Source: a virus
Strand: one strand, 5' to 3'
Length of the DNA: 24,197 nt
Virus record (IMG/VR): IMGVR_UViG_3300029900_000001
Span: 1 to 24,197 of that record
Shown here: positions 181 to 21,700 of the stretch, one piece after another
Layout of the letters: the number at the start of each line of letters is the position of its first letter
Position numbering within the stretch: position 1 is the stretch's first letter
Program-made: the position numbers and the translations under genes
Notes under the pieces: model-generated
Databases searched by the model: none
The model's input: only the letters and a program-made list of their open reading frames with translations
What the model was told of the DNA's origin: nothing

Positions 181-420
181 ATGGATACGTCTGCCGAGCC
201 GGATAAATCGGTTAGTTCTGATCCTACCGATACTTTAGTGATGAAAAACACTATCGCGCAACTCTTAAATCGTCTGGAAAATCAACGAGTACAAGCTGCG
301 CTTGCTTTATACGAATACTCAAAGACTTTGAACACTATCACGCGATACCTTCCGCAAATGACATCTTCACAACAGGACGCTGTAATCGCTTATGCTGAAC
401 AACATCATTTCAAATCTTGA
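181..420 (+). CDS. Small helical protein of unknown function
   Basis: A 79-residue acidic-to-neutral protein. Residues 1-18 are polar and look disordered (Ser, Asp, Thr, Pro). Residues 20-79 are predicted by eye to be helical, with a run of Leu, Ala and Gln. AGGA at 169-172 is well placed as a ribosome site. The gene overlaps the methyltransferase start by 29 bases in another frame, so the two are probably translated together. Its position two genes before the terminase large subunit invites a small-terminase guess, but it is shorter than usual for that family and has no clear helix-turn-helix. No function is assigned. Confidence 0.7.
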   Translation: MDTSAEPDKSVSSDPTDTLVMKNTIAQLLNRLENQRVQAALALYEYSKTLNTITRYLPQMTSSQQDAVIAYAEQHHFKS

Positions 421-5177: not shown

Positions 5178-5185
5178 GCGGAACA

Positions 5186-6026: not shown

Positions 6027-6668
6027 ATGACAGACCAGACAGTACCGCCGGAACAGCAGTTGCCAACCGTCGGGAATACTCCGGCCTCGACTACGAACTG
6101 GGAAGCGGCTTACAAGTCACTCCAGACCAACTACAACGCATTGTACGCGGCCAAAGAAACTGCTTTGCAGGGGAACATCGCGCAGGCTACCCAACTGGGA
6201 AATCTGCAGGCTACCCTGACCAACAAAGAGGCGGAAACGGCAGCAGCCATTGCCCAACGTGAACAGGCTGCCAAAGTCATGAGCGACGATCTGGCGCGCA
6301 CCAAAGCGGAGTTGCAAACCGCCCAAGCCGATCGGATCAAGTTCGACGCTCTGGCGAAACTGGACGTATCAGCCACGATTAAAGCGAACTTACTTTCGCT
6401 TATTCCTCACATCCCAAGTGCTCCGACCGTTGAAGCACAGGCAGAGATTTTCAAGTCTTTCGCCACCTTCGGGACGAACGTCGCGGCGACTCGCGAAGCC
6501 GAACTTCGGCAGGGAGTCACCCCAGGTTTTGCGCAGGGGCAAACTACGCCCACGACTCCTGCGACCACTGATGCCTGGCAGAGTCAGTTAAAGGCTACCA
6601 AGTTCGGTACGCCTGAACACAACGCTCTGCAAAATCAATACTTTGATTGGGCGCGTAAACAGAAATAG
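6027..6668 (+). CDS. Capsid scaffolding protein candidate
   Basis: A 213-residue acidic protein directly before the capsid gene. A Pro/Thr-rich start is followed by a long Ala/Gln/Glu/Lys-rich segment, about residues 45-115, with heptad-like hydrophobic spacing that looks coiled-coil. A Pro/Thr-rich hinge (PTTPATTD) and a short amphipathic C-terminal helix (WQSQLKATKFGTPEHNALQ) with a basic end (WARKQK) follow. Coiled coil plus a C-terminal capsid-binding helix is the usual scaffold design. ATG 6027 has GAAGGAA well placed, whereas an in-frame GTG at 5976 sits in a hairpin and adds an Arg-rich leader. The role is inferred from position and architecture, not from a recognised family. Confidence 0.75.
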   Translation: MTDQTVPPEQQLPTVGNTPASTTNWEAAYKSLQTNYNALYAAKETALQGNIAQATQLGNLQATLTNKEAETAAAIAQREQAAKVMSDDLARTKAELQTAQADRIKFDALAKLDVSATIKANLLSLIPHIPSAPTVEAQAEIFKSFATFGTNVAATREAELRQGVTPGFAQGQTTPTTPATTDAWQSQLKATKFGTPEHNALQNQYFDWARKQK

Positions 6669-6677
6669 GTTACTTAG

Positions 6678-7964
6678 ATGGCTTTTACTTTTGATACTGG
6701 ATCAGTAGTTTCGGGAACACTGACTGGTGGCCTGCGTCCGTTTTACGACCAGATGCTGCTCGATACCCTGCGCAACAACTCCGTGTACGTGCCCTACGTC
6801 GAGACGAAGGTTGACTTCGCGGCAAAGGCAGCCGGGCAGATGGTCTTCTCCGAAGTTTACGATACCGAGCCGTACTGGAATGCCATCAGCGAAACCAGCT
6901 ACTTCCTCAGTGGTATGCAGATGGGTTCACGTTCGGTCACGCTCAACGTTGCGCTCTATGGCGACGTGATGAAGTTCAGTGACTTTACCGAATACGTCAA
7001 CTTCTTCAACAACGGCGACTTTCGCGGACTCGTGCAAGGTAAGCTCGGTCAGAACATGGTTGAGACGCTCGATATTCTGGCTATGAACGCTTTCAATAGC
7101 GCTCCGTTTGTCACCTATGCGGGTGGGCACACGAATCGCTTCCAGATCACATCGACAGACATTTTTGACCCCGACCTGGGCGGCCTGGCTTTCACGCACT
7201 TGCAAGAACGCCTGATTCCCGGTCTGGTAAACATCTCGGACGGTGGCGAACCCGCTGTAATCGGCATCACTTCCCCGCGCGTCATCCACGACATCCGCAC
7301 TGGTACGCCTACCGTGCAAACGAAGTGGATCGACATCCTGAAGTATCAGCACGCTGAAATGAAGATGAAGAACGAAGTCGGCGCATGGGACGGTGTACGT
7401 TACGTGAAAAGCACGCGCGCCCGGCATCGCAATGCGGGTAAGGTGATTTTCCAAAGCACGCTTACCTCGAACACGATCCCACAGCAGGGTGGTGCAGCTA
7501 GCGTATTCGGCGTCTACACGACCGCCGCTGATGCTGTTGCTCCGCGTACCGTTCCGGTGGTTTCATCCAGCGGTTTTGCGGTCGGTCAATACGTGACGAT
7601 CCACAGCCAGACGGTCAATGATGCGGACGGTTCGGGTGCTTTTGCGCCAAACAAAGATGACGGTACGCAGGAAACGCGCCTGATCATCAGTATCGGTTCA
7701 AACGTTTTGTCCTTCGATAAGCCGCTGCTCAAAGCGCACCTGGCAGGCGACTACGTGACGAACGGCGTTGACCTGAACTACAGTAACATCATCGGTGGCC
7801 CGGCGGTTGCGCTTGGCGTGGCTGAAATGCCGACCATCGTGATGCCGCCCAAGATGGACGACTTGCAAATGTTGAACCGCATCGGCTGGCGCATGTTCGG
7901 TAAGTTCCAGATGTTCCGACCGGAATGGACTGAGTTGATCATCTCTGGCGGCTCGTCCACCTAG
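6678..7964 (+). CDS. Major capsid protein (HK97-fold, N4 gp56-like)
   Basis: A 428-residue protein after the scaffold candidate. The N-terminal part (LRPFYDQMLLDTLRNN, then VFSEVYDTEPYWNAISET) and the segment VETLDILAMNAFNSAP resemble capsid proteins of the N4 gp56 type, whose fold is HK97-like. PAVIGITSPRVIHDIRTG and a C-terminal MFRPEWTELIISGG fit the same family. Residues about 262-365 look like an inserted Gly/Ser/Thr-rich beta-domain before the conserved tail. No prohead protease is recognised nearby, so maturation cleavage is not predicted. The ribosome site is modest (AGG seven bases before ATG), surprisingly weak for the most abundant virion protein. The stop abuts a copy of the 14-bp motif. 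Confidence 0.85.
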   Translation: MAFTFDTGSVVSGTLTGGLRPFYDQMLLDTLRNNSVYVPYVETKVDFAAKAAGQMVFSEVYDTEPYWNAISETSYFLSGMQMGSRSVTLNVALYGDVMKFSDFTEYVNFFNNGDFRGLVQGKLGQNMVETLDILAMNAFNSAPFVTYAGGHTNRFQITSTDIFDPDLGGLAFTHLQERLIPGLVNISDGGEPAVIGITSPRVIHDIRTGTPTVQTKWIDILKYQHAEMKMKNEVGAWDGVRYVKSTRARHRNAGKVIFQSTLTSNTIPQQGGAASVFGVYTTAADAVAPRTVPVVSSSGFAVGQYVTIHSQTVNDADGSGAFAPNKDDGTQETRLIISIGSNVLSFDKPLLKAHLAGDYVTNGVDLNYSNIIGGPAVALGVAEMPTIVMPPKMDDLQMLNRIGWRMFGKFQMFRPEWTELIISGGSST

Positions 7965-7978
7965 TTCCTGCACAGGAA
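7965..7978 (+). repeat. Dispersed 14-bp near-palindrome, copy 4 (intergenic)
   Basis: TTCCTGCACAGGAA begins at the base after the capsid stop codon and makes up most of the 18-base gap to the next gene. Its right end, AGGAAG, also serves as the ribosome site of the connector gene. A bound protein here could block transcription, or the element may act in RNA. Confidence 0.88.
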
Positions 7979-7982
7979 GTGG

Positions 7983-8675
7983 ATGATGACAACCACCTGG
8001 GGTGAGTTTCGCAGTATGACTCGGTTGGATGTTCACGAGAACCCTGATAACCCGCGTATCACCGACGATTTGATGTACCTGTACTTCAAATGGGCGATGC
8101 ACGATTATTCGGTTTACAACCCTCTGATACATGAAGCACAGTTGACCACGAACGGGACGGATAATACCACACTGCCTGATGATTTTCAGGCCGCGCGCGA
8201 AGTACACGTCCCGCAAGGGAGACTGCTTGAGGAGCTTCATAAGCGTGAAGGATGGCGCTACAAGCAAGTCGGTTATCTGGGGATTTATCACGGCGTCCGC
8301 CCAACCCAGTATTGGGTACAGGGCGGGCAGTTGTATTTTAACCAGACGACCGATGAACTTGCGTACCTCGTTTACGACTCTGAACACATTGTACCAACTC
8401 ACAGCGCCGACGCAGGAACGGTTTTATCGTTTCCTGATCGCGACCAGCGTGCGATTATACTGTTCATCAAAGCGCAAAATGCTATCAGTACACGGACAAG
8501 ACAGGCGAACCTCGATCGGTATAAAGATCGCAATCAGTCAGGCCATACGCGCACTGACAACCCGTTAACGCCTGAGTCTGAACACCTGATGCGTGAATAT
8601 TACGACTTGATGAACAGATATTATACGCCGACTGGCAGCGTGTACCTGTACAGGCCCGGAAGGGGGCGCGGGTGA
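7983..8675 (+). CDS. Head-tail connector/adaptor protein
   Basis: A 230-residue protein in the slot directly after the capsid gene, where adaptor proteins that dock onto the portal are encoded. The sequence is mixed alpha/beta with an aromatic-rich middle (YLYFKWAMHDYSVYN, YWVQGGQLYFNQ) and a helical, Arg/Tyr-rich C-terminus. It starts with two ATGs at 7983 and 7986; the AGGAAG site at 7975-7979 is better spaced for 7986, a difference of one residue. The stop overlaps the next gene as GTGA. The functional call rests on position and size. Confidence 0.7.
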   Translation: MMTTTWGEFRSMTRLDVHENPDNPRITDDLMYLYFKWAMHDYSVYNPLIHEAQLTTNGTDNTTLPDDFQAAREVHVPQGRLLEELHKREGWRYKQVGYLGIYHGVRPTQYWVQGGQLYFNQTTDELAYLVYDSEHIVPTHSADAGTVLSFPDRDQRAIILFIKAQNAISTRTRQANLDRYKDRNQSGHTRTDNPLTPESEHLMREYYDLMNRYYTPTGSVYLYRPGRGRG

Positions 8676-9193
8676 GTGTTACAGTTGACCTGCTTGTCTT
8701 GTACCAGAAAGCGTTGCAAGCCGCCTTGATTGACCGCGTAGGGGCTAACGATCCCCTGCGGGCGGGTATCGTAAAAATAGGGGCATTACAGGGTGAACCC
8801 GAACCAGACGTAGCTCGTATTTCGGTGACTGTCCATCCTAACGATCCAGATAACCTGGACGATTGGTTGGACGAGATCATCGAAGTCGAGATGCCCAACA
8901 GCGCCTACTGGGAGCGTCGTTTTACGGTTAAGTATCAACTCCTGCTCGAAGTGACTGGCGAGGCATTACTGCCCGCCCTGACGCTTTCTTCAGACCTCAA
9001 AGAGCGTATCGAGCACACCATCCTCGGCGTGTCGTATGCCGCGCTCAATCTACCCACCGAGCGCGTCGTTCGCGGTGCGATGTCCACTGACTCCGATAGT
9101 CATTTCCTGCAAGGGGGTGGCCCGCCGGACAGCTACAACATGAATGGCAAGTATCGATTCTCGGTAGTCACCCTGACTAGCGCTACTTATTAG
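8672..9193 (+). CDS. Tail terminator / head-tail joining protein candidate
   Basis: A 173-residue protein starting at GTG 8672, which overlaps the connector stop by four bases and is therefore translationally coupled. It has an alpha/beta pattern: an N-terminal helix (VDLLVLYQKALQAALIDRVG), several beta-strands including RRFTVKYQLLLEVTG, a helix around SSDLKERIEHTILG, and a C-terminal strand KYRFSVVTLTSATY. This arrangement and the place just before the tail tube gene are those of tail terminator proteins that cap the tube and bind the head. No motif is diagnostic. Confidence 0.6.
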   Translation: MSVTVDLLVLYQKALQAALIDRVGANDPLRAGIVKIGALQGEPEPDVARISVTVHPNDPDNLDDWLDEIIEVEMPNSAYWERRFTVKYQLLLEVTGEALLPALTLSSDLKERIEHTILGVSYAALNLPTERVVRGAMSTDSDSHFLQGGGPPDSYNMNGKYRFSVVTLTSATY

Positions 9194-9208
9194 CAAGGAT
9201 TTAGTTCA

Positions 9209-10288
9209 ATGACCTCAGCACTCAACAGTCATTTTGGGTTTGCCTTACAGACCGCCAAAGGCACTCCGAATGTTACCGACACGGCCTATCACTATCAGTT
9301 TTTCAGTGAAGGCACTGGTATCGAACCCGAACCGATGTACCTGCCACTCGATCAAGAGATTGGCAGCGGCCCGCTCATCCGTGATGTGAAAGCGGTAGGC
9401 GTTGTCGGTCGCGGCCAGTTCCGCTTTATCCCACGTCCTAACTTTCTTGGCTACCTTCTACTTGGCGCACTTGGGCAAGTTACGACCACCGCACCGACGG
9501 GCCAGTTGACAACCGCTACGCACTTGTTTGACTTTCAAGCGAACCAGTTCAACCTGCCGTACTTCACGATGCGCCGCCGCATTAGCGCTGGTAACTTTGG
9601 CGACATTGTGCCAGACTGCCGTATCGAGACGCTTCAGATCGAGGCGAAAGCCGCCAACTTTGTACGTGGCACGTGCTCGGTGCTCGGCGCTGGTATGCCT
9701 TCGATCACCAATACGCCTGACGCCTGGAACGCAGCGACGTACCTGGATGCGTCCGATCCGTTCCTGACCTGTAAGGGCACGGTTGAACTGCCGACGGGTA
9801 CGGGTTTGACCCTACTCGAAGCGAGTATCACAATGGCAAACCAGATGCCGCTCGACGAACAGATGGTTATCGGGCACTATACGCCGGACGACATCGAAGT
9901 GGTCATGCGCAGCATCACAGTTCAGTTCACTGCCAAGGTCAAGGACATCAGCCTGTACCAGAAGATGAAGTACGGGCAAACGGGTTCAGGTTCTATTACC
10001 TATCCGGCATCCTGGCTGCCGAACGTATACCGCGAAGCCGCTTTGAACCTGACTTTCCAAAGCGAGCGCGAGAACGATCCGGGCGTTCCTAGCTCGATCA
10101 CCATCGCAGCCAACGGCTCGTCTGGTGCAAACTCGAACATTGCCTGGTCGTGCCAACCGATCGGTTTGCGTGGTAACAACCAGGTCGTGTTGAGTTTCTC
10201 CGGCACGGTACTCGCGGACAACACAGCGGCTGCGGCTGGCCCGTTCTCGGTTACTCTGCACAACACCAAAACGTCTTACGCCACCTAG
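9209..10288 (+). CDS. Major tail (tube) protein
   Basis: A 359-residue beta-rich protein in the position of the tail tube subunit, before the tail-assembly chaperone and tape measure genes. Residues 1-290 carry the tube features: an N-terminal segment MTSALNSHFGFALQTAKGT like the start of many tube proteins, VGRGQFRFIPRPNF, and a recurrent strand pattern. The last ~70 residues (after VPSSITIAANG) are Gly/Ser/Asn-rich with alternating strands, possibly a surface-decorating domain as in some siphophage tubes. AAGGAT at 9195-9200 is a good ribosome site eight bases upstream of the ATG. A terminator follows. Confidence 0.78.
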   Translation: MTSALNSHFGFALQTAKGTPNVTDTAYHYQFFSEGTGIEPEPMYLPLDQEIGSGPLIRDVKAVGVVGRGQFRFIPRPNFLGYLLLGALGQVTTTAPTGQLTTATHLFDFQANQFNLPYFTMRRRISAGNFGDIVPDCRIETLQIEAKAANFVRGTCSVLGAGMPSITNTPDAWNAATYLDASDPFLTCKGTVELPTGTGLTLLEASITMANQMPLDEQMVIGHYTPDDIEVVMRSITVQFTAKVKDISLYQKMKYGQTGSGSITYPASWLPNVYREAALNLTFQSERENDPGVPSSITIAANGSSGANSNIAWSCQPIGLRGNNQVVLSFSGTVLADNTAAAAGPFSVTLHNTKTSYAT

Positions 10289-10296
10289 TTTTATCA

Positions 10297-10325
10297 AGGC
10301 GGAGCAATCTCGCTCCGCCTCTTTC
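10297..10325 (+). terminator. Terminator-like hairpin after the tail tube gene
   Basis: AGGCGGAGC at 10297-10305 pairs with GCTCCGCCT at 10312-10320 around a six-base loop. A pyrimidine-rich stretch (CTTTCT) follows, which overlaps the next copy of the 14-bp motif. It probably limits read-through from the abundant tube message into the chaperone and tape measure genes. Confidence 0.75.
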
Positions 10326-10335
10326 TGCACAGGAA
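10322..10335 (+). repeat. Dispersed 14-bp near-palindrome, copy 5 (intergenic)
   Basis: TTTCTGCACAGGAA lies directly on the 3' flank of the terminator stem and 11 bases before the chaperone ATG. Being non-coding here, its conservation cannot be due to protein sequence. AGGAAC may double as a distant ribosome site. Confidence 0.88.
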
Positions 10336-10346
10336 CTCGAATAAAA

Positions 10347-10781
10347 ATGACCAACACCTGGGGAAAATACGCCGTCCTCGATACGCACACCTATCGTTTG
10401 CCGCTCATCAGCGACCATGCCTCATGGACGTTTCGCGCGCCCACTTTTCGCGACGAGGCGGCGGTTGCACGCGCATTGACCAGTTTGACGTCGCGCCCGA
10501 ACCGTTTGGACATCGTTCGTTACGAACTCGCTTACACTTTCAAGTCCACCACCATCCCTAGCGAGAACAGTCTGGATGCTGAAGGGAATATTTGCGATGA
10601 CCCGACTAGCGCATCGTTCAAGCCGTTTCTGCCCGCAGGCTCGTCACCTGAAGCAGTATTGGCTGCTCTTGACAAGATGCCAGCGACGTTGGTTGATGAA
10701 CTGTGGATGCAAGTCTCGACGGTCGCGCCGAACTGGGGCGCGGTAAAGCCCGTCGAGGCAGTTAATCCAGCGGGGGAATAG
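10347..10781 (+). CDS. Tail assembly chaperone, short form (G-like)
   Basis: A 144-residue protein between the tail tube and tape measure genes, where lambda-type gpG chaperones are encoded; these coat and help fold the tape measure protein during tail assembly and are absent from the virion. The sequence starts MTNTWGKYAVLDTHTYRLP, continues with RAPTFRDEAAVARALTSL (typical of this class), and ends Pro/Ala-rich at VNPAGE. The stop TAG at 10779-10781 comes right after a GGGGG run, and a coding -1 frame continues past it. Identity rests on position and the frameshift arrangement. Confidence 0.78.
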   Translation: MTNTWGKYAVLDTHTYRLPLISDHASWTFRAPTFRDEAAVARALTSLTSRPNRLDIVRYELAYTFKSTTIPSENSLDAEGNICDDPTSASFKPFLPAGSSPEAVLAALDKMPATLVDELWMQVSTVAPNWGAVKPVEAVNPAGE

Positions 10782-11041
10782 AGTACGTAGAGGATAGGCT
10801 TGACGCGCTCGAAGAGACGCTGAAAGACTACCTTTACGGCAAACAGAACGACGCATACTTAAATCACTTAATCACGCTTGCTCGGATGTATATGGATAAA
10901 CAGCATTATCCAGAGCCGGGCGGTTTTCTCGACCAGCCCTACTTTTTTATGTCGTATGTCGTTCCCTGGATAGAGCAGGGTTATGACGAGATGCGGCAGT
11001 CTGAACAAGCCAAAGCCCAAGCCCAGGAGTTCCCTGGGTGA
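10347..11041 (+). CDS. Tail assembly chaperone, -1 frameshift fusion (G-T-like)
   Basis: From 10766 the -1 frame stays open to TGA at 11039-11041. Its codons give a clearly protein-like sequence: a charged helix (EDRLDALEETLKDYL), LITLARMYMDKQHYP, then FLDQPYFFMSYVVPWIEQG and a Gln/Ala-rich end. It has no start codon before an internal ATG at 10885, so it must be reached by a -1 shift from the upstream gene. An in-frame TAA at 10763-10765 confines the shift to 10766-10781. The product is 231 residues. A longer minor form made by -1 frameshifting is the widespread rule for tail-assembly chaperones (lambda gpGT). The second domain would recruit the tube protein to the tape measure. Confidence 0.82.
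10772..10778 (+). promoter_or_regulatory. Programmed -1 frameshift site
   Basis: G-GGG-GAA, read as GGG GAA in the zero frame and as GGG GGA after slipping, immediately before the TAG stop at 10779. The P-site tRNA re-pairs perfectly on the G run; the A-site codon re-pairs imperfectly, so this is not a textbook X-XXY-YYZ heptamer. It is the only repetitive run in the 16-base window in which the shift can occur. The adjacent stop codon may add a pause. Confidence 0.7.
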
Positions 11042-11052
11042 GGGCTTTTTAT
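11012..11052 (+). terminator. Nested terminator hairpin before the tape measure gene
   Basis: An outer stem AAAGCCC (11012-11018) with GGGCTTT (11042-11048) encloses an inner stem CCCAGG (11022-11027) with CCTGGG (11033-11038), followed by more T/A. The left arm lies inside the end of the frameshifted chaperone coding sequence, so translating ribosomes would disrupt it: termination may be sensitive to how often ribosomes frameshift. It ends 17 bases before the tape measure ATG. Confidence 0.72.
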
Positions 11053-11068
11053 TTATTAAAAGGTCACT

Positions 11069-14000
11069 ATGCCACGGAATGATAAAAAACGGTCAAAAGC
11101 AAACCGCGTCAGCCAACAGGAAGTCGATTGGAAGGAATATCGAACCGATCTGCCTAAAGACTATCCTAAAGGCATGTTCGGTTTGTACAGCAGTGATTTC
11201 TCGAAAGACCCGCTGCTTAAAGAAAAGATTGAACTCGGTAAAGAGTTAGGCACGGCCTATACCGCTCCGCCAACTACCGGATCGCGCAAGCTGACGCCCG
11301 ATGTTCTTGAGGATCAACAGCGCGTACTTGGCGAGAGCATCTTTCGCGGCTATACCGCCTGGGCTAAAAAGAAAGATGTGGCGACAGCCGATCCGCTTCA
11401 TCAGTACATTGGTGCGAACTATTTTGCAGGTGGTGCAACCGATCCAGGTACGATGGGCACGTTCCTCACCAAAACTGCCAACGTTACTGGTGCTCCTCGA
11501 CAGGCAGCGCTTGATTATGCGGCTAAAGTTTCTGCACAGGAACGTCCGGTTAGCAGCTTTTACCTGGGAGACGATGCGCGGAAAGCGCGAGAGCGTATCC
11601 TGGGACATTATGCAACTCAGGCGTTCACGACTCCACTACTGAAGAATGCTGGCGAGTTGGGTGAAGATGCTTTCGGTATTGCCGCACTAGCCCATGCGCA
11701 AGGTGCGCATCAGGTCTTTAGGTGGGACGCCGACAAGGGTAGTATGGCGCTGAAAACGTCGTACCAGACGTTTGGCAGCTCGGTACGCGGCGCTTTTCGG
11801 GAAGAAAAGAGAAAGATTCGTGAAGAGCGTAAGTTAGAGTTGAACGCATCAGGAATGGGCGGTGATAGCGAGGAAGGTGATGGGCTACTAAACTCACTGG
11901 ACATCAACTCGATTACCGGGCAGGTAGTCAACGGCGCATTTCTCAATAAGAATGATGCACAAGATAGCCTGGATAATATCAGTGCCGGTTCAGCAACCAT
12001 CGATCAGACGGGTATGAAAACGCCTGAGGTGGAACTGTGGATTAAATATGATGCTGACTATCATGGTGGTGATGGTAAGACTGTTCCAAAAATCGATGAT
12101 GTCAAAAACTGGATCGAAACGGCACAAAACGATCGATCTAAACTGAAAGGTTTTAAGTACGATCGGCAAAATGAAACCCTAAAAGATATTGCCCCGCGCG
12201 CTCAAGCCGAGAAAGGGATGCCGCCTTCATCTTTGGCGCTCTTGCTCAGTGAAAGCAATGGCGGTATGGATGCGCTTACCAAGCGTACCGAAACGGTAAT
12301 CGCTGGAAAATCAAAGAGCGACAACCCACTGTTCAACAAGAACAGTCCAGTCAGAAGTCAGGGTTGGAACTCGTTCCTCGACGTGCGCAAGCTGTACGGC
12401 GAGAACAACTCGGTAGACAGTGCTTTTGAAGTAAGTCACTTTCCCGATCGTGCACGCGAAAGCACTACTTATACGCGCGATACTGAATATGACGAAGTGG
12501 CACAGCAAGTTGCCGGGCCTGGTTATATCGCTGTAAAGGGCAGCTACAAGTCGCTTAATCAACAGTCGGGCAGCACCATGTTCTATCCTTTTCGTGGATT
12601 AAAGAACGATCTGCACGCCGAGCGATCGATTGTCCATAATAAAGACCTGACTCAACTGGAAGATGAGGGAGATTCATTCCAGACGAAACAGGGTAACACT
12701 TCGTTTAACTTCAATACCCTGACCCAACTGGAAGATCGAGCCGATTCATTCCGGGGCGAAGCTGTGCCTGATGGCTTTGTAGATGTGCCGCAGAGGGCGT
12801 CTCAAAGCGAGATAGCGTCAGTTCGTACCAGTGAGTTCGACAATGCCTCTAAAAGCGCTTTCTATGGCTCTTATACGGACGAGCAGCTTGCCAACGTACC
12901 ATTAAGTGCTATGGATAGCGAAGATGATGAGCGTGGGTGGGCAAACGACATCCCTGAACAACCGGGCGGTACTCGTGGTGAAGAAGCTGTTGATAGTGAG
13001 ATGGCCTCTGTATCGGCGGCAGCTAAACGACGCAGTACGCTTGGTCATAAGTGGGCGGCCAACTATGCCTACCCTATTACGTCCCGGCTTGCTCCAGGGA
13101 CACCGCTTGTAGCACGTCCAAAGCGCGAGCAAGACCTCGAAGAACAAATCCCTGAAATGACCGACGATCGTAAAGTTTCGCTGATGGCTGATGTTGAGAA
13201 GATCAAGGGCATTCAAGAAAATCGCCGAGACAACAAAAAGTCTATTGCACAGCGTAATAAATATGTGCGTGGTATACAAAGTACATGGAGTGCTGAGAAA
13301 GAAGAACAGTTACCACAACTTCCCGGCTTGCATCAAGAACGAAAAAGACTTGAAAGGCGCGAGGAAAAGGTCAAGGAAGAGTTCTTCAAAACCTGGGGGG
13401 TTGAAGCCGATCCGCTGATCAAGAAACTTGACGATAAGCAGAAAAGAGCCAAGCGCAATCTGCGGCGTGCCGATACTGCTGCCGACAACGAGACTCGTTG
13501 GTTCGATAAACCACGCGATAAACCAAACGGCGACGAAGCGATGCCCTGGTTGAAAGATGCCGATACTTCATCGGTGGGTACTTCTTTCTCTGAAACTGCC
13601 GCGCCAGTTGCCACCAGCCCGCAGCCGATCAGCGATCCGGCCCGTTTACTGGCTGCCCCGCAGCCTGCACAGCGCGAGTGGTGGGACATCGATCGCCAGT
13701 ATGTCACCAAAGAGCACGCGCCAAAACGTAATCCAGATGCCGACGCCCTGAAAACCTCGGCGCGCAGTCCTGGGTTTTATGGTGGCTATCCGGCGGACAG
13801 CACGATAAAAGGAAAACAGTCGGCTTCTGATACGCCAGATCATGCAGAGCGTCCAGTTATCAGTTTGCACGCTCATTCGCAGAGTACATACGATGCAATG
13901 CCAAAACAGACCGATCCGGCACGTCTGCTTGCTGCGACTTCATCTGCACCACCCAAGCGTGGTGGCCTTAACACACTTCCCACCTCGCCAGATGCGATTG

Positions 14001-17000
14001 CGTTACAGCCATCAGCCGAGTTCAGGGTTTTTTCGGCTAGTGAAATCACTGCGCTGCCAAAAAACTTTTCCGATCCAATGGAGAATATATGGGCATCGGC
14101 GCAACGTATAATGCCCGATGAGCCATGGCAGGCTTTCTATGAGGAAACTCTCGCGCACGAGGCAGGTCACGGAGTTTTTGAGTTATCCCAGGGCACTGGT
14201 ATTGGCTCTTTTTTCGCTACCGCTCATGAGGGTGGACAAGTTAGCTCTGCTGTAGGCAAGCCAAGTTATCTTGGCAGTGACCTTCTAGATAAATACGTAG
14301 GAGGTGTTGTCGGTGCTACTGCGGCATCGTACCCGTTGAGAAGTCGCGGTGCTATAGTAGATATATTCCAGTTTTCCGCTTTGACAGATGGTGTCAAGAG
14401 TTATGATGAACTCACTCAAAATCATGCGAACGAGTTTTACAAATATGCTCAAAAAACATCATTGCGGTTTAACAAAGAACTTCATGCACAAACTGGCGAT
14501 GCGCTTCATAGAACCGGGCCTTTTATATATGAGGCGGATAGTTTTCTAGATCTCGATGATAAGTTCGACAATGGCATCGCCCGATCGGTTAGATTTGATT
14601 ACTTAGATTTAACGGATGGTGTTATTCATAATCACTATGAAGACCCCGGAACTCCTTTACCGTTACGCAAAACAACGAGTGATGGTCGTTATGATCCTCA
14701 ATATGAACCAGGTTACGATCCTAAAAGTGCTGAATGGCGTGCTGGTGATCCGCTATCTGGTTTTGCAAAGATTACGCCGCCACCGCCCGAACCGATAGGC
14801 GATCCCTTATCTGGCAATGCAGTTATCGTGCCACCGCCAGTGCCGCCAGGCGATGAACTTTCCGGCTTTGCAGCAGCTTCCACACTGCCGCCCGTTCCTG
14901 TACAAGAAAATACTCGACCCGCCGTACAAACACAACCCGCCAGCCCACAGCCAGTTACTGATACTGTAAAACCTGAACAAAAAAAGAAGCTTAAACTACT
15001 GGCGGCAAAGTTCGACAAGCGCGCGCCGATTGCCGATACTGCCGTTAATAAAGAGGGTGGCGATCAACTTTCTCTTAGTGGCGATCTTCAGGCCGATCCG
15101 GTCAAGACCACTAAGCCTAAAACATGGGGCATCAAAAATAAGCATTACGGCGTCTATCATCCTGATCTTATAAACGAATCAGCTAAAACAAAAAATGCCG
15201 CTTATCGTGTAGCTCAAGAAAAAAGAAAACAATGGCTGGCGGCCAGCAGCCAAACTGCCACTGATCAGCAAGCTGTACGCGCTGTGATTCCCGCAGTTCC
15301 TGCGCAGGAAGCTAGCACACCCGCACAGCCAAAGCGCTTGTTTGTCACTGGCAACAAATACGAAACTGACAAAGAAGGCGTCGGTTATCGCAACACGCCG
15401 ATCGCACAGCGGGCACTGAAAGCGCTCGATCATGCTCAATCGGCTGGTTATGAAGTTCACACTGGCGACGATCAGCGTGGTATCGATCCGCTGGTGATTG
15501 ACGAAGCAGCTAAACGCAAGATGCCTATTAACACACACGGTTTAGGTGAACATCCGGCCTATCGTGGTGGCGGTTACGACGCATCGACCAAGACTTACAA
15601 AAGCGGTGGCGCATATACACAGCATCAGTCTGACGAGAAGCGACCACGCGCGGCTGAGAACGATCGTGATCGGCAGGTCATCGACAGTCTAGGCGCTGAC
15701 GATCGGGCGCTGATGTTGTGGAACGGTAAATCTCCTGACGTTAAAGGCGCGTTCAACCACGCAGAAGCACAAGGGGTTACTGCGTCTCTATTCAACGCCG
15801 AGACTGGTAAAACGACACAATCTGAACAGAAGCCGGACTATCTGCTGCCTGCGCGGTTGCTGAACGAGCAGGGCGCGATGCCAAAGAACTCGTTTGCTGA
15901 AGCTGACTCGAAAGTTCAGCAAGCAACAATGAACCGCCTGTTTGGTAAAAAGAGGGTGGGCATCGATAGTTACGAGCAGGTATTAGCTCACGAAGCGGGT
16001 CATGCTGCGGTTGTTTTAGGTCGCGGCGGGGCAGTGAATGCTGGCGCTGTATCGACATCTGGCGGCGGCGTTATCCTTCAAGAGCCTGGTGATAAGCCGT
16101 TGTCCAAAGGTGATCTGCTTGATCGTTTTACGGGTGGCGCGGCTGGCGAGGCGATGTTCACCGGACAAGTTGCGCCGAACGTTACACACATCAGCGATAT
16201 GTTCAGCTTTGCATCGGTAGCTTTTGGGATCGTTCATCCCGATGAACTAACCGAGGATCACGCGCGCGAGTTCTATGGGCACGCTCAGGGATTATCTGAA
16301 CGTCTCGATCCGGCGACGGTCAAGACAGTTGCCAATACGCTTGACCAGATGGGCGTTTTTGATGGGTCAAAGTCGCATTGGGCACAATCACTGGCAAACA
16401 TTGCTGGAGTGCCATTGCGTGCCGTGCGTGGCGCTCTACGTATGACAAAGGGTGTTATTCACCATGAAGGAGAAGCGCCAGGTACACCACTGGACACCAA
16501 AGCGCCGTCGATTAAGGATCGTACAAGATACGGCACAGGCTACAATCCTGAGGACGCAAAATGGCGCAACGATACAGCGCCTGACTTTAGTTTGCCAGGC
16601 GACGGAAGTTCCGTTACACCGCCAGTAGCCAGTGTTCGCACGCGCGACGCCAAGGGCCGTTTTGTATCTGCTAAAAATACGCACGATCAAACTTTTCCTG
16701 TATCTCCCACGTCCCAACCTGCGCAGACAACTACTGCCATTCCTGCTCGTCAACTTAACCCTATCGTTAATGGTAGTGCGCGATCTGCCGAACAGACCCG
16801 CACGTCTTTTGCTAATCAGTTGGCAGTTCTCGACAAAGAAACTCCGGCTCAATCAAGTCCGGTCTCGACTGTTACCACACAGATGCAAGGTGACGAACTC
16901 TCTGGTCTGACTCAAGCGTCAACCCACCCGCCTGCACCAGCCACGGTTCAAGGGGACGAACTCTCTGGTCTGATGCCAGCGTCAACCCGTGCACCGGGTG

Positions 17001-20000
17001 CTCAGCCTGCCAACTCGCACACGGCAGCTACTCAAACACTTGCTAAAACGGGCGTAATCTCTCCACCCACTCAGACCGGATCGGGGAATGGTGGCAGTAA
17101 ACCGCCGTCACAACCACCCACAGCGACTCTGCCAGATGACTGGCCGGACGATCTTGATCCAAGTCTATACGACAGCGCCGCAGCTCAATCAGGGCCTCTT
17201 TCTGCGCAGGAAGATTATGAGACTCATGCGCCGCGCCGTCTCTCGCAAAGCAACTATGGCGAGGACTACAAACAAGAACTTCGCAAGCGATTTGTTGATG
17301 CTCGTAAAGCGGCACGCGCGTCGGGCGGAGACATCGATAACAATCATCCTTTAGCTGTTGCTTTGAAAGATGCAACTTCGGATGACGTGCTCGATACAAT
17401 GCAGCCGATCAAGCCTGCCCACGAACAGGCACAAAGCACCTTTAATGGTATTGCTGCCGATACAATGCCTGTGCCGAGTCGTATCCGTATTGGCGCAGGT
17501 ACTGCACCAGCGGCTCGTGGCAGGCAAGATCAGGCCGATCTGCCTAGCGAACTCAAACGTGCATCGCTAACACTGGCTGGCGATGTAATGCCCGCTAAGG
17601 GTGTCACCGTGCAAGGCGAGGAGCTACTCGCAGCGCACAGTATCGCGTCAGCCGCACTTAGTGAGGGTGCGCAATCCGAACGTCCAACTACCGGATCGGT
17701 CACGCAGCAGATTGCAGGATTACTCAAGGCTAGTGAAACTGCTTTACGCCGCCATGTCGATAAGATGGTCGGTGAGATCGATAAGAACGATCCTGAGTTT
17801 ATCCAAAAACATGAAATAGCAAAGCGTGTTGCTGACGCTGCCTTTAAGCTGCTTACCAACTCGGTCGATCAAATATCGGGTGATGTAGGTGGTGAAAACG
17901 CACCACGTACCGGAGCGTTACGCGCTCACAGCCGCGAGAACTATCACGAGATTTCTGCCAACAAAGATGGGAAAGAGAAGTTAGAGGGACTTACTTCCAA
18001 CTCGTCTTACTACCAGGAACGCATCGCTAAACTGGGTGGCATTGAGCGTGCCATGCAGAATCAGTTCATCATTCCTGGGCGTGAAGGCGCAGTGGCAGGT
18101 GACGCAGATCACCTGGGTATCGCTTTCGGCGGGCCGCGAAATGTCAACAACAGCGGTGGGCGCGGCTTCGAGATGCTGTACGCCGCTCGTGCCATTCGTT
18201 CAGCGTTTCAAGGTACGATCGGAGAAGTCGAGCAAGGCATCCAGCGCTACGCTTCCGAAGATCGGGGATTCTCGATCGGATCAGGTAATGGCTTTGGTGA
18301 ACGTGCGCAGAACCAGTCAAAGCGTAAAGACCTTCAGTTTAATATGGATCGGGCTGACGCTGATAACTTTGACTACCTGACGACCACGCCTGCCCGTATA
18401 CTTGGCGGAAATCGTGGCGCAGCCGATGTTGCAGCCTTTGCACGGCTTGGTGGCGGTGCGGTACTGGCCGGACAAGTACCACAGATGCTCGGTATAGGCG
18501 AGCAGCCCGGTGTGCCGATGGGTACTAAAGGACTAGGTGGTGCGCTTGGCGGTACAATCGGCTCGCAAGCGGCAGGGGTAGGCGTCCTGGCTGGCGCGGC
18601 TATGGTTGGCACTGGGTTGGGTGTTGCAGTTGCGAATACAATCCCCTATGTTAGTAAGGCGTATGGTGGGCATTTTGGCCTTGAAGATGCTGTAAACACG
18701 GCAGAGCGCGGTGTATTCGCAGCCAGTGCTACTATCAACGGGCTGTTTGGTGATACCAGTTGGGCGAAAAATACTTTTGCAGCGGGCGTGTATAACGAGG
18801 AGAGTTGGGCGGTAGGCAAGTCGCAAACGGCTGTTGATAAACAAATAGATGCGGCTAAAAGGTTTGTTTACGACAATCATCTGCGTGGTATCTCGCCGGA
18901 CGGGAAAACCGACGCTTTATATATCGCTACTCAATCGATTGGCATCAAAGCGTCTACTGGCGGCGATCCACTTGCGAGAGCGAATCAAGAACTAGCCGTT
19001 ACGACCCGTTATGAAGATGCACTGACTGCCGCGCAGCCAAAACCAAAACCCGACGATGGAGCGCTTCGTTTCTTACTGGGTGTAGGGATTCCTTCAGTTC
19101 ATCTGGGCGGTAGCGCAAAACAACCTGTAAAAGCGCTAACAGATGATGAAGTAAAGGCAGCAGTACAAGCCGATCCGAAGTATATAGCCGAGATAGCTGC
19201 GCTTAAACAAAGTCCGGCTTATAAACTAAATCGAACCGCCGAGGAATATCAGGCGAACTTAGGGGCACTGACAGCGGCTGGTATCATTCAAGATGCCAAT
19301 GATACGCACGTTCAATCGGAATCCTCACGATACGCGCAGCAGATGGGCTTTGTGGCCGGGACACAAAACTACGAGGACACCTTAAAGGATTATACCACTG
19401 CGCCGCTCGGTGCAGATGGAAAGCCTTCGGTAGCTGATTTCCTTATCCAGAGCAACGCCAAGTCCGCTTATGGCGCTCGTATGGGTAATGCCACCAATGC
19501 GCTGACTGGTGCAGGTGTTGATCCGCTGGCAATCGGCGGCATGATCGGGAACACCAGCCCACTAACAGCATCAGCGGGTGCAAACTTACTGGCCTCCGCA
19601 GGGGCGGCGGGCGCTGATGTGGCGTCTGGTGACATCGATGGCGGCCCGGCAAAACATGGGTTTGATGAAAACGGTACTTCGCAAGACCTGCTGAATGCAA
19701 TCAACGGGTCAGCCAAAGAAGGTAAACAGAAACGCGCCAATCGCATTAACGCGATCGGTCAACAGTTAGGCTCGGCTCGTTCGGGGCAAGTAGGCGGCTC
19801 GCTTGGGGCTATCGCTTTGGCGGGTGGCGATGTAAGTCAGGCAGCCGAAGATGCGCTCACGATGTCGGCTGGTCAATACGGTGTGTACAGTGCGGATATC
19901 AGTGCGGCTATGGAGGCGGGCGTTAGCGGGCCAGATGCACAGAAGTCCGCTGCTAAGTTTGCACCTGGACAAACACCGCACCTCGGCAATGTCATTGTCA

Positions 20001-21700
20001 ACAATGCCCAACATGCTCAAGACCTGGGTATGGATTATGAAAAAGCAAAGGGATTGTTCACTGGTCTTTCTGTGCAGGAACAGAGTCGCACGTCTAGTGT
20101 ACTCAGTATGCAGGCTGACTTTGGTCTGAACGTCAACCGGGGCGATGTACAGGCACAAGCAGTTGCTTTCGGGCAGAACTATACCAATCAGCAACTAGGG
20201 GCTGCCACGGGGCAGATTAACACGCTGGTGGGGCTTGGTGCGCGTTCTGATGATGCTATCAGTCAGGTTGCCAAAGTTGGGCCGCTGACTAACTATGGCA
20301 ATCGTATTATGAGTCGCCTGCAAGGGGGCGATTCTTATACCACCTCGCAGTTCGCACGTACCGAATACGGTAAATCTTTAGGCGCGGTTGAAACCGAGAA
20401 CGCACTCGGCCAACCCATCCATCAGGCCGAGAGTTGGGCACAGGAAGCGCAGTCGCACGCTTTAGGTTATGGCGAGACGCGCTACCAGTTGGGTATTCAG
20501 GCACAGCGCACGCAGCAGCAAGGCGCGTTTTCACTGGGTGGGTCTTTCTATAACCCAATGAGTGGGCGGCAGGACTATGTAGGCGGTGGCGGTTCAATCG
20601 GGTTAGCCGAAAGTCAAGCGAAACTCGGATGGGCACAAACGAGCTATGGCTTTGATTTCCAACAGCGTCAGATGGGTGTTCAGCGCACCCAGTTCTACGA
20701 GACGCAAGGTTTCAATGCCAAGGTTTCTGCACAGGAAAACACCTGGAACAAACGTGACTGGTCTTTCAGTGAGGATCAATCACAGCTTCATTTTGGTTGG
20801 GCTATGCAGGACGCCGACCGGAATATCAAGTATGCACGCGGGCGCGATCGACAGGATTTGATCCGCAACAAAGAGCGTGCGGTTGTTGACGAAACAATGC
20901 GCGAGTCACATAGCCAGGATGAAAAAGGACGCATTGACACAAAGCGTACTTGGGAGTTAGAATCACAAGAGCGCGCAAAGCGTTTCTTTGAGCAAGATCA
21001 GACCATGCAGCAAGAGCGGCTGAGGGTCGATCGGCAGTTCTTCGAGCAGGGTAAACAGTACGAGATTCAGCGGCTTGAGATGCAGCGCAAGGAAGCTGAA
21101 CTCAGTCAGTTCTACGCGGTCAAGGAAAACGAACACGCTACCCAACTGGCGGTCAAGCAAGAAGGGCTATATCAGGCTCAGCTTAAACTCTCACATCAGG
21201 TAACACTGGAACAAGAGGCGGCGGCACTGTGGTATAGCGTGACCTATCCTAAACTTCTGGCAGCCAATCAGGTTGATCAGAAGCGCGTGATCGATGCAAT
21301 GGGCGTTGAACTGCAAACCACGTTGACGAATACGACTTCGCAAGCTGACACCTTTATCCAGAACTTCGCTGTTACTTTTCAAAACGCAATGTCTCCGCTC
21401 ATTCAGACCTTGTTCAATCTGGCAAACGCGCCCACTGTTCGTAGTCCCGGCGGAGTGGGTAGTAACCGTACCGATCCAGGCACAGGTGATCCGCCGTCGA
21501 ACCCACATCACAATCACGGAGGCGCACAAGGCGCGAGTACGGCATCTACTGCCGATACCAAAGCACATCAACTGCTCACATCGATCAACACGCACCTGAG
21601 CAACATTGCCAGTAAGCCAGCGACCTCGGCCACGATTTACACCAATGACGTTAAAAGCGCGTTGAGTGCCTTCAAAGAGTACGATCGTTCATTCAAATAG
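11069..21700 (+). CDS. Giant tape measure protein with inserted enzymatic domains
   Basis: A 3543-residue tail-length ruler. AAAAGGT gives a good ribosome site. Residues 1-300 are mixed helical. Residues 300-1000 are polar and repetitive (LTQLED repeats at 527 and 551, DPARLLAA at 856 and 949). Next come an M41-like peptidase domain (996-1224), Pro-rich GDxLSG linkers (1226-1266), a SLOG-like domain (about 1422-1580), a second M41-like domain (1604-1833) and more GDELSG linkers (1941, 1962). Hydrophobic Gly/Ala segments near 2490-2528 and 2811-2851 are typical of tape measures and could enter the membrane. Residues about 3210-3390 form a Gln/Glu/Arg-rich coiled coil. The C-terminus is Gly/Pro/His-rich. 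At the usual ~0.15 nm per residue the full length would set a tail near 530 nm; inserted globular domains would shorten this. Five copies of the 14-bp motif lie inside. Confidence 0.92.
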   Translation: MPRNDKKRSKANRVSQQEVDWKEYRTDLPKDYPKGMFGLYSSDFSKDPLLKEKIELGKELGTAYTAPPTTGSRKLTPDVLEDQQRVLGESIFRGYTAWAKKKDVATADPLHQYIGANYFAGGATDPGTMGTFLTKTANVTGAPRQAALDYAAKVSAQERPVSSFYLGDDARKARERILGHYATQAFTTPLLKNAGELGEDAFGIAALAHAQGAHQVFRWDADKGSMALKTSYQTFGSSVRGAFREEKRKIREERKLELNASGMGGDSEEGDGLLNSLDINSITGQVVNGAFLNKNDAQDSLDNISAGSATIDQTGMKTPEVELWIKYDADYHGGDGKTVPKIDDVKNWIETAQNDRSKLKGFKYDRQNETLKDIAPRAQAEKGMPPSSLALLLSESNGGMDALTKRTETVIAGKSKSDNPLFNKNSPVRSQGWNSFLDVRKLYGENNSVDSAFEVSHFPDRARESTTYTRDTEYDEVAQQVAGPGYIAVKGSYKSLNQQSGSTMFYPFRGLKNDLHAERSIVHNKDLTQLEDEGDSFQTKQGNTSFNFNTLTQLEDRADSFRGEAVPDGFVDVPQRASQSEIASVRTSEFDNASKSAFYGSYTDEQLANVPLSAMDSEDDERGWANDIPEQPGGTRGEEAVDSEMASVSAAAKRRSTLGHKWAANYAYPITSRLAPGTPLVARPKREQDLEEQIPEMTDDRKVSLMADVEKIKGIQENRRDNKKSIAQRNKYVRGIQSTWSAEKEEQLPQLPGLHQERKRLERREEKVKEEFFKTWGVEADPLIKKLDDKQKRAKRNLRRADTAADNETRWFDKPRDKPNGDEAMPWLKDADTSSVGTSFSETAAPVATSPQPISDPARLLAAPQPAQREWWDIDRQYVTKEHAPKRNPDADALKTSARSPGFYGGYPADSTIKGKQSASDTPDHAERPVISLHAHSQSTYDAMPKQTDPARLLAATSSAPPKRGGLNTLPTSPDAIALQPSAEFRVFSASEITALPKNFSDPMENIWASAQRIMPDEPWQAFYEETLAHEAGHGVFELSQGTGIGSFFATAHEGGQVSSAVGKPSYLGSDLLDKYVGGVVGATAASYPLRSRGAIVDIFQFSALTDGVKSYDELTQNHANEFYKYAQKTSLRFNKELHAQTGDALHRTGPFIYEADSFLDLDDKFDNGIARSVRFDYLDLTDGVIHNHYEDPGTPLPLRKTTSDGRYDPQYEPGYDPKSAEWRAGDPLSGFAKITPPPPEPIGDPLSGNAVIVPPPVPPGDELSGFAAASTLPPVPVQENTRPAVQTQPASPQPVTDTVKPEQKKKLKLLAAKFDKRAPIADTAVNKEGGDQLSLSGDLQADPVKTTKPKTWGIKNKHYGVYHPDLINESAKTKNAAYRVAQEKRKQWLAASSQTATDQQAVRAVIPAVPAQEASTPAQPKRLFVTGNKYETDKEGVGYRNTPIAQRALKALDHAQSAGYEVHTGDDQRGIDPLVIDEAAKRKMPINTHGLGEHPAYRGGGYDASTKTYKSGGAYTQHQSDEKRPRAAENDRDRQVIDSLGADDRALMLWNGKSPDVKGAFNHAEAQGVTASLFNAETGKTTQSEQKPDYLLPARLLNEQGAMPKNSFAEADSKVQQATMNRLFGKKRVGIDSYEQVLAHEAGHAAVVLGRGGAVNAGAVSTSGGGVILQEPGDKPLSKGDLLDRFTGGAAGEAMFTGQVAPNVTHISDMFSFASVAFGIVHPDELTEDHAREFYGHAQGLSERLDPATVKTVANTLDQMGVFDGSKSHWAQSLANIAGVPLRAVRGALRMTKGVIHHEGEAPGTPLDTKAPSIKDRTRYGTGYNPEDAKWRNDTAPDFSLPGDGSSVTPPVASVRTRDAKGRFVSAKNTHDQTFPVSPTSQPAQTTTAIPARQLNPIVNGSARSAEQTRTSFANQLAVLDKETPAQSSPVSTVTTQMQGDELSGLTQASTHPPAPATVQGDELSGLMPASTRAPGAQPANSHTAATQTLAKTGVISPPTQTGSGNGGSKPPSQPPTATLPDDWPDDLDPSLYDSAAAQSGPLSAQEDYETHAPRRLSQSNYGEDYKQELRKRFVDARKAARASGGDIDNNHPLAVALKDATSDDVLDTMQPIKPAHEQAQSTFNGIAADTMPVPSRIRIGAGTAPAARGRQDQADLPSELKRASLTLAGDVMPAKGVTVQGEELLAAHSIASAALSEGAQSERPTTGSVTQQIAGLLKASETALRRHVDKMVGEIDKNDPEFIQKHEIAKRVADAAFKLLTNSVDQISGDVGGENAPRTGALRAHSRENYHEISANKDGKEKLEGLTSNSSYYQERIAKLGGIERAMQNQFIIPGREGAVAGDADHLGIAFGGPRNVNNSGGRGFEMLYAARAIRSAFQGTIGEVEQGIQRYASEDRGFSIGSGNGFGERAQNQSKRKDLQFNMDRADADNFDYLTTTPARILGGNRGAADVAAFARLGGGAVLAGQVPQMLGIGEQPGVPMGTKGLGGALGGTIGSQAAGVGVLAGAAMVGTGLGVAVANTIPYVSKAYGGHFGLEDAVNTAERGVFAASATINGLFGDTSWAKNTFAAGVYNEESWAVGKSQTAVDKQIDAAKRFVYDNHLRGISPDGKTDALYIATQSIGIKASTGGDPLARANQELAVTTRYEDALTAAQPKPKPDDGALRFLLGVGIPSVHLGGSAKQPVKALTDDEVKAAVQADPKYIAEIAALKQSPAYKLNRTAEEYQANLGALTAAGIIQDANDTHVQSESSRYAQQMGFVAGTQNYEDTLKDYTTAPLGADGKPSVADFLIQSNAKSAYGARMGNATNALTGAGVDPLAIGGMIGNTSPLTASAGANLLASAGAAGADVASGDIDGGPAKHGFDENGTSQDLLNAINGSAKEGKQKRANRINAIGQQLGSARSGQVGGSLGAIALAGGDVSQAAEDALTMSAGQYGVYSADISAAMEAGVSGPDAQKSAAKFAPGQTPHLGNVIVNNAQHAQDLGMDYEKAKGLFTGLSVQEQSRTSSVLSMQADFGLNVNRGDVQAQAVAFGQNYTNQQLGAATGQINTLVGLGARSDDAISQVAKVGPLTNYGNRIMSRLQGGDSYTTSQFARTEYGKSLGAVETENALGQPIHQAESWAQEAQSHALGYGETRYQLGIQAQRTQQQGAFSLGGSFYNPMSGRQDYVGGGGSIGLAESQAKLGWAQTSYGFDFQQRQMGVQRTQFYETQGFNAKVSAQENTWNKRDWSFSEDQSQLHFGWAMQDADRNIKYARGRDRQDLIRNKERAVVDETMRESHSQDEKGRIDTKRTWELESQERAKRFFEQDQTMQQERLRVDRQFFEQGKQYEIQRLEMQRKEAELSQFYAVKENEHATQLAVKQEGLYQAQLKLSHQVTLEQEAAALWYSVTYPKLLAANQVDQKRVIDAMGVELQTTLTNTTSQADTFIQNFAVTFQNAMSPLIQTLFNLANAPTVRSPGGVGSNRTDPGTGDPPSNPHHNHGGAQGASTASTADTKAHQLLTSINTHLSNIASKPATSATIYTNDVKSALSAFKEYDRSFK
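11529..11542 (+). repeat. Dispersed 14-bp near-palindrome, copy 6
   Basis: TTTCTGCACAGGAA, read as Val-Ser-Ala-Gln-Glu at about residue 154 of the tape measure protein. Confidence 0.85.
12647..12757 (+). repeat. Short tandem repeat in tape measure gene (72-nt period)
   Basis: Two units encode LTQLEDEGDSF (from residue 527) and LTQLEDRADSF (from residue 551), 24 residues apart. At DNA level ACTGGAAGAT and GATTCATTCC are shared by both units. It looks like an old local duplication within the polar N-terminal third. Confidence 0.7.
14054..14740 (+). other. M41/FtsH-like peptidase domain, copy 1, in tape measure
   Basis: Residues 996-1224. The zinc motif is His1030-Glu-Ala-Gly-His1034, and Asp1098 in IVDIF lies 68 residues on, the place of the third ligand in FtsH-type (M41) peptidases. 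DLLDKYVGGVVG precedes it but lacks the acidic residue usually found in the GGxxxE helix, so this copy may be weaker or structural. It continues with LTQNHANEFYKYAQ, GVIHNHYEDPGTPL and GYDPKSAEWR, all of which recur in copy 2. The DNA here is AT-rich compared with copy 2. Confidence 0.75.
14744..14871 (+). repeat. GD(P/E)LSG Pro-rich linker repeats, set 1
   Basis: Three units starting at Gly1226, Gly1244 and Gly1261: GDPLSGFA, GDPLSGNA and GDELSGFA, separated by runs such as TPPPPEP and VPPPVPP. Period 17-18 residues. They directly follow peptidase copy 1 and probably form a flexible linker with a short recognition peptide. Confidence 0.75.
15297..15310 (+). repeat. Dispersed 14-bp palindrome, copy 7 (perfect)
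   Basis: TTCCTGCGCAGGAA is a perfect 14-bp palindrome, the only fully symmetric copy. Read as Val-Pro-Ala-Gln-Glu just before the SLOG-like domain. Confidence 0.88.
15332..15808 (+). other. SLOG-like nucleotide-binding domain in tape measure
   Basis: Residues about 1422-1580. The first strand RLFVTGNKYE is followed by a helix and AGYEVHTGDDQRGIDPLVIDEA (Gly1466, Gly1471, Asp1473), matching the strand-loop TGGAxGID-type phosphate-binding motif of YpsA/DUF2493-like SLOG proteins. The distal part RQVIDSLGADDRALMLWNGKS (Trp1551, Gly1553, Ser1555) matches the 'AD..LAxWdGkS' motif of the same superfamily, and FNHAEAQGV is its final helix. SLOG domains bind nucleotides or nucleotide-derived signals. 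The fold call is by eye. Confidence 0.68.
15878..16567 (+). other. M41/FtsH-like peptidase domain, copy 2, in tape measure
   Basis: Residues 1604-1833. The zinc motif is His1641-Glu-Ala-Gly-His1645; DLLDRFTGGAAGEAMF resembles the FtsH GGRxAEE helix, and Asp1710 in HISDMF is the likely third ligand, 69 residues after His1641. LTEDHAREFYGHAQ, GVIHHEGEAPGTPL and GYNPEDAKWR align with copy 1 at a constant offset of 608-612 residues. This copy keeps more M41 features and is the better candidate for activity. Confidence 0.78.
16889..17017 (+). repeat. GDELSG linker repeats, set 2 (63-bp tandem)
   Basis: Two units beginning at Gly1941 and Gly1962, each GDELSGL followed by an AST-Pro run. At DNA level GACGAACTCTCTGGTCTGA and AGCGTCAACCC are identical in both units with a 63-bp period, indicating a fairly recent duplication. 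They follow peptidase copy 2 as set 1 follows copy 1. Confidence 0.8.
17199..17212 (+). repeat. Dispersed 14-bp near-palindrome, copy 8
   Basis: TTTCTGCGCAGGAA, read as Leu-Ser-Ala-Gln-Glu in the tape measure gene. Confidence 0.85.
20067..20080 (+). repeat. Dispersed 14-bp near-palindrome, copy 9
   Basis: TTTCTGTGCAGGAA, read as Leu-Ser-Val-Gln-Glu. The DNA is identical to copy 1 although the reading frame differs. Confidence 0.85.
20724..20737 (+). repeat. Dispersed 14-bp near-palindrome, copy 10
   Basis: TTTCTGCACAGGAA, read as Val-Ser-Ala-Gln-Glu, at the start of the C-terminal coiled-coil region of the tape measure protein. It is 657 bases from copy 9, the shortest spacing. Confidence 0.85.

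Follow-up and report, generated by a model that had tools for sequence, protein, structure and literature searches.

A very probable tape measure protein of a bacterial virus was found to carry two paralogous M41-like peptidase domains, which flank a domain that likely belongs to the SLOG family. We propose, with about as much confidence as doubt, that the N-terminal two thirds of this protein constitutes a virion-carried payload of the polyvalent type, which would be proteolytically active during or after ejection. If this holds, the virus carries ready-made enzymes into the cell along with its DNA.

Gene context of the probable tape measure protein

The window analyzed here is the IMG/VR virus record IMGVR_UViG_3300029900_000001 (24,197 bases, classed linear), whose source is a bacterial virus known solely from environmental DNA. 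It contains a single stop-free frame of 3543 residues at 11069-21700 on the + strand, which is equipped with a good ribosome-binding site (AAAAGG, five bases before the ATG). This frame, its hydrophobic segment and the tail genes before it are as follows:

9209..10288, + strand: tail tube protein gene (Pfam PF18906 Phage_tube_2, E=1.8e-15; PHROG 290 tail, E=4.5e-23)
10347..10781, + strand: G-like tail assembly chaperone, 144 aa, between tube and tape measure, ending GCG GGG GAA TAG
10772..11041, + strand: T-like extension in the -1 frame, open but with no start codon of its own close to the G stop, with its stop at 11039-11041
11069..21700, + strand: very probable tape measure protein, 3543 aa, 0 Cys, with the ATG at 11069 preceded by AAAAGGTCACT
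18419..18643, + strand: Gly-rich hydrophobic segment, residues ~2451-2525, in the C-terminal part of the tape measure

Upstream of the long frame, we also found an SPP1-type portal gene (E=2.7e-9), the gene for the major head protein (PHROG 1357, E=3.8e-20) and a weak, below-cut-off match to an SU10-type adaptor. A programmed frameshift to the -1 frame is probable at GGGGGAA (10772-10778), while the G-like chaperone itself matched no family. The Gordonia phage Demosthenes, whose tube protein is distantly related to that of the window, has an equal layout, with a joined chaperone pair annotated 'j2' preceding the tape measure. Since the gene order runs from the tube through G/GT-type chaperones with a -1 frameshift to the long frame, and since the encoded protein lacks cysteine, we conclude that this frame very probably encodes a tape measure. 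The initial annotation had described it as a 3543-residue tape measure, and this synteny, the frameshifted chaperone and the cysteine absence bear it out at that strength. No curated tape-measure family matched the protein in Pfam or PHROG, or in NCBIfam for its C-terminal part. Gly-rich hydrophobic segments in the C-terminal part are typical of tape measures, and the 19-residue hydropathy maximum of the segment at residues 2451-2525 (1.94) is the highest in the protein. The 10.6-kb frame is open and free of cysteine throughout, which lowers the worry that it is an assembly chimera.

Two other genes of the window were recognized. A metallo-phosphoesterase gene (window 5174-5962; PHROG 221, E=2.4e-26) lies directly 3' of the portal gene and 5' of the major head gene, and a DNA methyltransferase gene (window 392-1204; PF01555, E=2.9e-23) overlaps the start of the terminase gene.

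Two paralogous M41-like peptidase domains

The HExxH signature occurs in the protein as HEAGH at residues 1030-1034 and 1641-1645, and at no other site. The initial annotation had placed here, in the span 14054-16567 (residues 996-1833), two paralogous M41-like domains with Asp1098 and Asp1710 as third ligands, separated by a SLOG-like domain. We delimited the three domains as follows:

14075..14740, + strand: M41-like peptidase copy 1, residues ~1003-1224 (His1030, Glu1031, His1034, Asp1098)
15320..15814, + strand: SLOG-like domain of the YspA type, residues 1418-1582 (hhalign profile match)
15836..16567, + strand: M41-like peptidase copy 2, residues ~1590-1833 (His1641, Glu1642, His1645, Asp1710)

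The two peptidase copies are indeed paralogous (BLASTP E=2e-28, 33% identity over ~204 columns) and have in common the C-terminal tail GVIH...PGTPL...GY.P..A.WR. In a MAFFT alignment, the His, Glu, His and Asp of both copies align to columns that are invariant in 12/12 FtsH proteins, with Asp1098 and Asp1710 on the invariant third zinc ligand; an hhalign global alignment gave the same position for Asp1710. The paralogy and the ligand assignments of the initial annotation were thus confirmed.

An alignment of the two copies was compared by hhalign with an M41 profile built from 12 FtsH proteins (from E. coli, phages and plasmid-borne). As a result, the pair scored 42.5 with a probability of 83%, whereas 150 column shuffles that kept LAHEAGH gave 28.6 +/- 2.2 with a maximum of 35.5 (0/150 reaching 42.5; z=6.3), and full shuffles gave 13.0 +/- 2.1. 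When the M41 profile was run along the tape measure, the scores peaked in the windows that cover the two HEAGH sites. Among 120 windows taken from unrelated proteins, the highest score was 23.3 (in the N4 vRNAP). With HEAGH masked, the GG..E segment still stayed in register with M41, and 1/100 shuffles were as good. Single M41 proteins gave z=3.0-5.2 against the pair. Tested by itself, copy 2 scored 40.9 (0/80 shuffles keeping LAHEAGH), while copy 1, which is without the conserved Glu of the GG..E segment, was not significant (8/80 shuffles as good); copy 1 is counted as M41-like because it is the paralogue of copy 2.

Other HExxH families were represented by profiles that rest on one or two sequences each. 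M48 (z=0.2), M78 (z=0.5) and the N4 vRNAP peptidase (z=0.5) did not rise above shuffles, and M50B, the best near-match in Pfam (sub-threshold and covering the HExxH helix only), was rejected as the home of the peptidases at z=1.0.

Models from Pfam, PHROG, NCBIfam and PADLOC all failed to match the cassette, and PF01434 (M41) likewise had no match in the record. When the entire protein was scanned with Pfam, no AAA+ domain, the part that feeds FtsH, was found, and the L..KET motif at the C-terminus of FtsH is missing as well. An AlphaFold model of the peptidase (pLDDT 36) was too poor to confirm the fold, and the PDB fold search returned no significant match. On the strength of the profile-profile comparisons, which were specific among the HExxH families tried, we class the peptidases as M41-like, in agreement with the initial annotation, and not as members of FtsH.

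At 0.35-0.39, the GC3 of peptidase copy 1 and its linker (window 14075-15319) is below that of the SLOG-like domain and copy 2 (0.51) and that of most of the tape measure (~0.48); the two peptidase copies may have been acquired at different times.

A SLOG-like domain between the peptidases

The SLOG profile was built from 14 phage YspA-type proteins taken from database records (one annotated as YspA SLOG, another as DUF2493), and the seed query used to collect them was a consensus that we wrote ourselves. Residues 1418-1582 aligned with this profile co-linearly from end to end, with an hhalign score of 32.3 over 117 columns, whereas shuffles gave 11.7 +/- 2.3 with a maximum of 18.3 (0/200 reaching the observed score), and windows of unrelated natural proteins scored at most 16.6. 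The domain retains the first-strand Gly, G1466....G1471.D1473, A1529 and R1533, while the phosphate-loop Gly-Thr is changed to D1557-V1558 and Arg-Asn to Arg-Asp. PF10686 did not match the region. A single-sequence AlphaFold model showed alternating strands and helices and was too poor to confirm the fold (pLDDT 47); its PDB matches, which were weak and non-significant, include molybdenum cofactor carriers, a LOG-like lysine decarboxylase and TRPM N-termini, which we take to be SLOG proteins. Residues 1418-1582 thus likely belong to the SLOG family, and the profile-profile tests uphold the SLOG-like domain that had been noted between the peptidases. Nucleotide binding by this domain is uncertain.

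Search for relatives

The queries used to look for relatives were the cassette and its parts, the two paralogues, the terminase and the tape-measure C-terminus. No relative of the cassette appeared in 50,697 phage records or 72,556 plasmids by protein search, nor in IMG/VR or GTDB genomes by peptide-pattern scans, which need short exact or degenerate matches and so pass over distant relatives. The LAHEAGH pattern was present at 47 loci in IMG/VR, among which there were 0 homologues. Because no relative was found, active-site conservation was judged from the two copies. In the literature, of which our coverage was partial, we found no tape measure that had been linked to M41 or SLOG domains.

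The portal, capsid and tube proteins had distant matches in the phage records, at 21-29% identity. The capsid gene also led to the IMG/VR contig IMGVR_UViG_3300015202_000100, which shares ~98% identity with the window across the head and tube genes and ends before the tape measure. On this contig, a 728-bp insert (3666-4393) lies in the major head protein gene, and the window copy is without it. On its opposite strand, the insert contains an ORF of LAGLIDADG-like character (PF14528 at E=0.003, short of the cut-off); it is likely a self-splicing intron, since its + frames are closed; no Rfam intron family matched it. A sigma-factor region 2, suspected by eye in residues ~150-290 of the tape measure, was supported neither by 14 mixed nor by 5 group 1-3-like sigma sequences.

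Proposed role as an ejected payload

Two linkers of the tape measure carry short repeated motifs:

14744..14866, + strand: Pro-rich linker with three GD(P/E)LSG motifs, at residues 1226, 1244 and 1261
16889..16969, + strand: second linker with two GDELSG motifs, at residues 1941 and 1962

In our proposal, two zinc peptidases with the M41 active-site layout would flank a SLOG-type Rossmann domain, and Pro-rich linkers would join this payload to the C-terminal tape-measure part with its hydrophobic segment. The chain is probably unfolded in the tail lumen and would be ejected before the DNA; its N-terminal part, on the head side, would exit last and reach the inner membrane or the cytoplasm. After ejection, the payload domains may regain their folds, take up zinc and become proteolytic. 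Probably they would first cleave their own chain at the linkers, which would free the domains, and host or defence proteins are possible later substrates. The analysis shows the gene context, the paralogy, the conserved ligands, the profile similarity and the lack of cysteine, whereas we infer zinc binding, activity, delivery, ejection order and substrates. Points against the proposal are that neither relatives nor curated-model matches were found in the collections searched, that copy 1 by itself did not outscore shuffles, that the structure models were poor, that AAA+ is missing and that the SLOG-like domain has lost Gly-Thr and the Asn of Arg-Asn.

In phage T5, the tape measure lies with its C-terminus at the tail tip, and the domain of it that cuts murein exits first (PMC10038345); an N-terminal cassette would accordingly be expected to exit late, close to the DNA. 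During injection, tape measures reach the inner membrane and contact its proteins (PMC13190303). Polyvalent proteins, in turn, are giant multidomain proteins of virions and conjugation systems that are ejected and contain 1-5 zinc peptidases interspersed among other domains; zinc peptidases are the commonest of their domains, and have been proposed to act in self-processing before, during or after entry, or in attack on host proteins (PMC5512222). Being large and multidomain, with interspersed zinc peptidases and encoded with virion genes, the tape measure fits this definition. A likeness to polyvalent-type zinc peptidases in particular was not seen in the one comparison made, with the N4 vRNAP peptidase (z=0.5). 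The initial annotation had suggested that the cassette may be pre-packed cargo; the polyvalent framework (PMC5512222) gives that reading a published footing, and also allows self-processing.

The composition of the protein is consistent with ejection. It has 0 Cys in 3543 residues against 20.7 expected from the rate in the other window genes (23/3932; P about 1e-9). Cysteine is likewise absent from lambda gpH (0/853), from the tape measure of Demosthenes (0/2799, partial sequence) and from the injected virion RNA polymerase of phage N4 (0/3500; 6524-17026 in the N4 record). Although the free relatives of the cassette contain cysteine (SLOG 1.88%, M41 0.55%), the cassette itself resembles ejected proteins in composition. 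In this small sample, the absence of cysteine might be a marker of phage proteins ejected through the tail. Separately, gp134 of Streptomyces phage BRock (32569-35646; 1025 aa, one cysteine), annotated as 'endolysin', sits at the expected tape-measure position and may be a tape measure that bears a lytic domain.

A doubtful alternative is that the peptidases act in morphogenesis, cutting the tape measure, or tail proteins next to it, while the tail is assembled and remaining inactive in the host, with the GD(E/P)LSG motifs as cleavage sites and the SLOG-like domain as a folding or regulatory spacer. There are five near-identical motifs in total, in the linkers after each peptidase, and precedents exist in the T5 tape measure pb2, cleaved after R1127 (PMC10038345), and in phage P1 DdrB, processed before packaging, as proposed by its own zinc peptidase (PMC5512222). 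However, two active sites and a SLOG domain exceed the needs of one processing event, and the motif repeats may be mere duplicates that arose along with the peptidase unit.

Also unlikely is the reading in which the tape measure is an injected nucleotide-responsive protease, with AAA+-free M41-type peptidases that are gated by the SLOG domain and cleave a factor of entry or defence, in the inner membrane or the cytoplasm, on DNA arrival. Quite unlikely, in our estimate, is that the domains are former enzymes kept as length-setting filler or as binding surfaces. The partial loss of the SLOG phosphate loop would suit such a structural role, as would the weak M41 likeness of copy 1 and its missing GG..E Glu, but 4/4 zinc-site residues are kept in both copies at 33% identity. 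We consider it improbable that the peptidases serve as entry enzymes that open peptidoglycan cross-links or another envelope barrier. Known tape-measure enzymes are mostly muralytic, such as the metallopeptidase motif of T5 pb2 and the M23 domain of Basilisk-like phages; yet M41 substrates are protein and not murein, the cassette is in the N-terminal half whereas the murein-cutting domain of T5 is C-terminal at the tail tip, and the periplasm offers a SLOG domain no nucleotide. Finally, the M41 and SLOG labels are extremely unlikely to be wrong through chance resemblance, as the permutation nulls (0/150 and 0/200), the natural-protein nulls and the rival HExxH families all fall short, even with poor models and no match in curated libraries.

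Comparison with known systems

Tape measures are among the earliest phage proteins at the inner membrane, where the host defence SNIPE has been shown to associate with the tape measure (PMC13190303). If the payload reading is true, the protease and SLOG domains of a tape measure would turn the very first step of infection into an enzymatic attack, and polyvalent effectors, which are usually thought to be packaged in the head, would become linked to the tail. With this protein, one can also test directly whether domains inserted in a tape measure refold and work after ejection.

With the tape measures of T5 (pb2), TM4 and Basilisk-like phages, the present protein has in common an enzyme within the tape measure. 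Those enzymes are murein hydrolases such as M23, and that of T5 is C-terminal, whereas here an M41-like pair with a SLOG-like domain occupies the N-terminal half. The peptidases resemble FtsH and the M41 family in HEXXH, the Asp third ligand and GG..E, which come in the same order and at roughly equal spacing, but they are without AAA+, L..KET and a Pfam M41 match, and stand as two copies within a tail protein. The SLOG-like domain shares with the phage YspA/YAcAr (DUF2493) proteins a co-linear alignment, the first-strand Gly, G....G.D, the Arg motif and a W(D/N)GKS segment; unlike the free-standing YspA, it is fused into a tail protein, has lost Gly-Thr, has Arg-Asp for Arg-Asn and contains an insertion of ~25 residues.

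The polyvalent proteins, including the N4 vRNAP (Iyer et al. 2017, PMC5512222), are likewise giant and multidomain, with interspersed HExxH zinc peptidases and linkage to virion genes, and the N4 vRNAP is also Cys-free. The tape measure differs from them in its M41 layout with an Asp ligand, and RNA polymerase, ART and ParB domains were not found in it. Furthermore, its putative payload lies within a tape measure, a type of protein that PMC5512222 does not mention.
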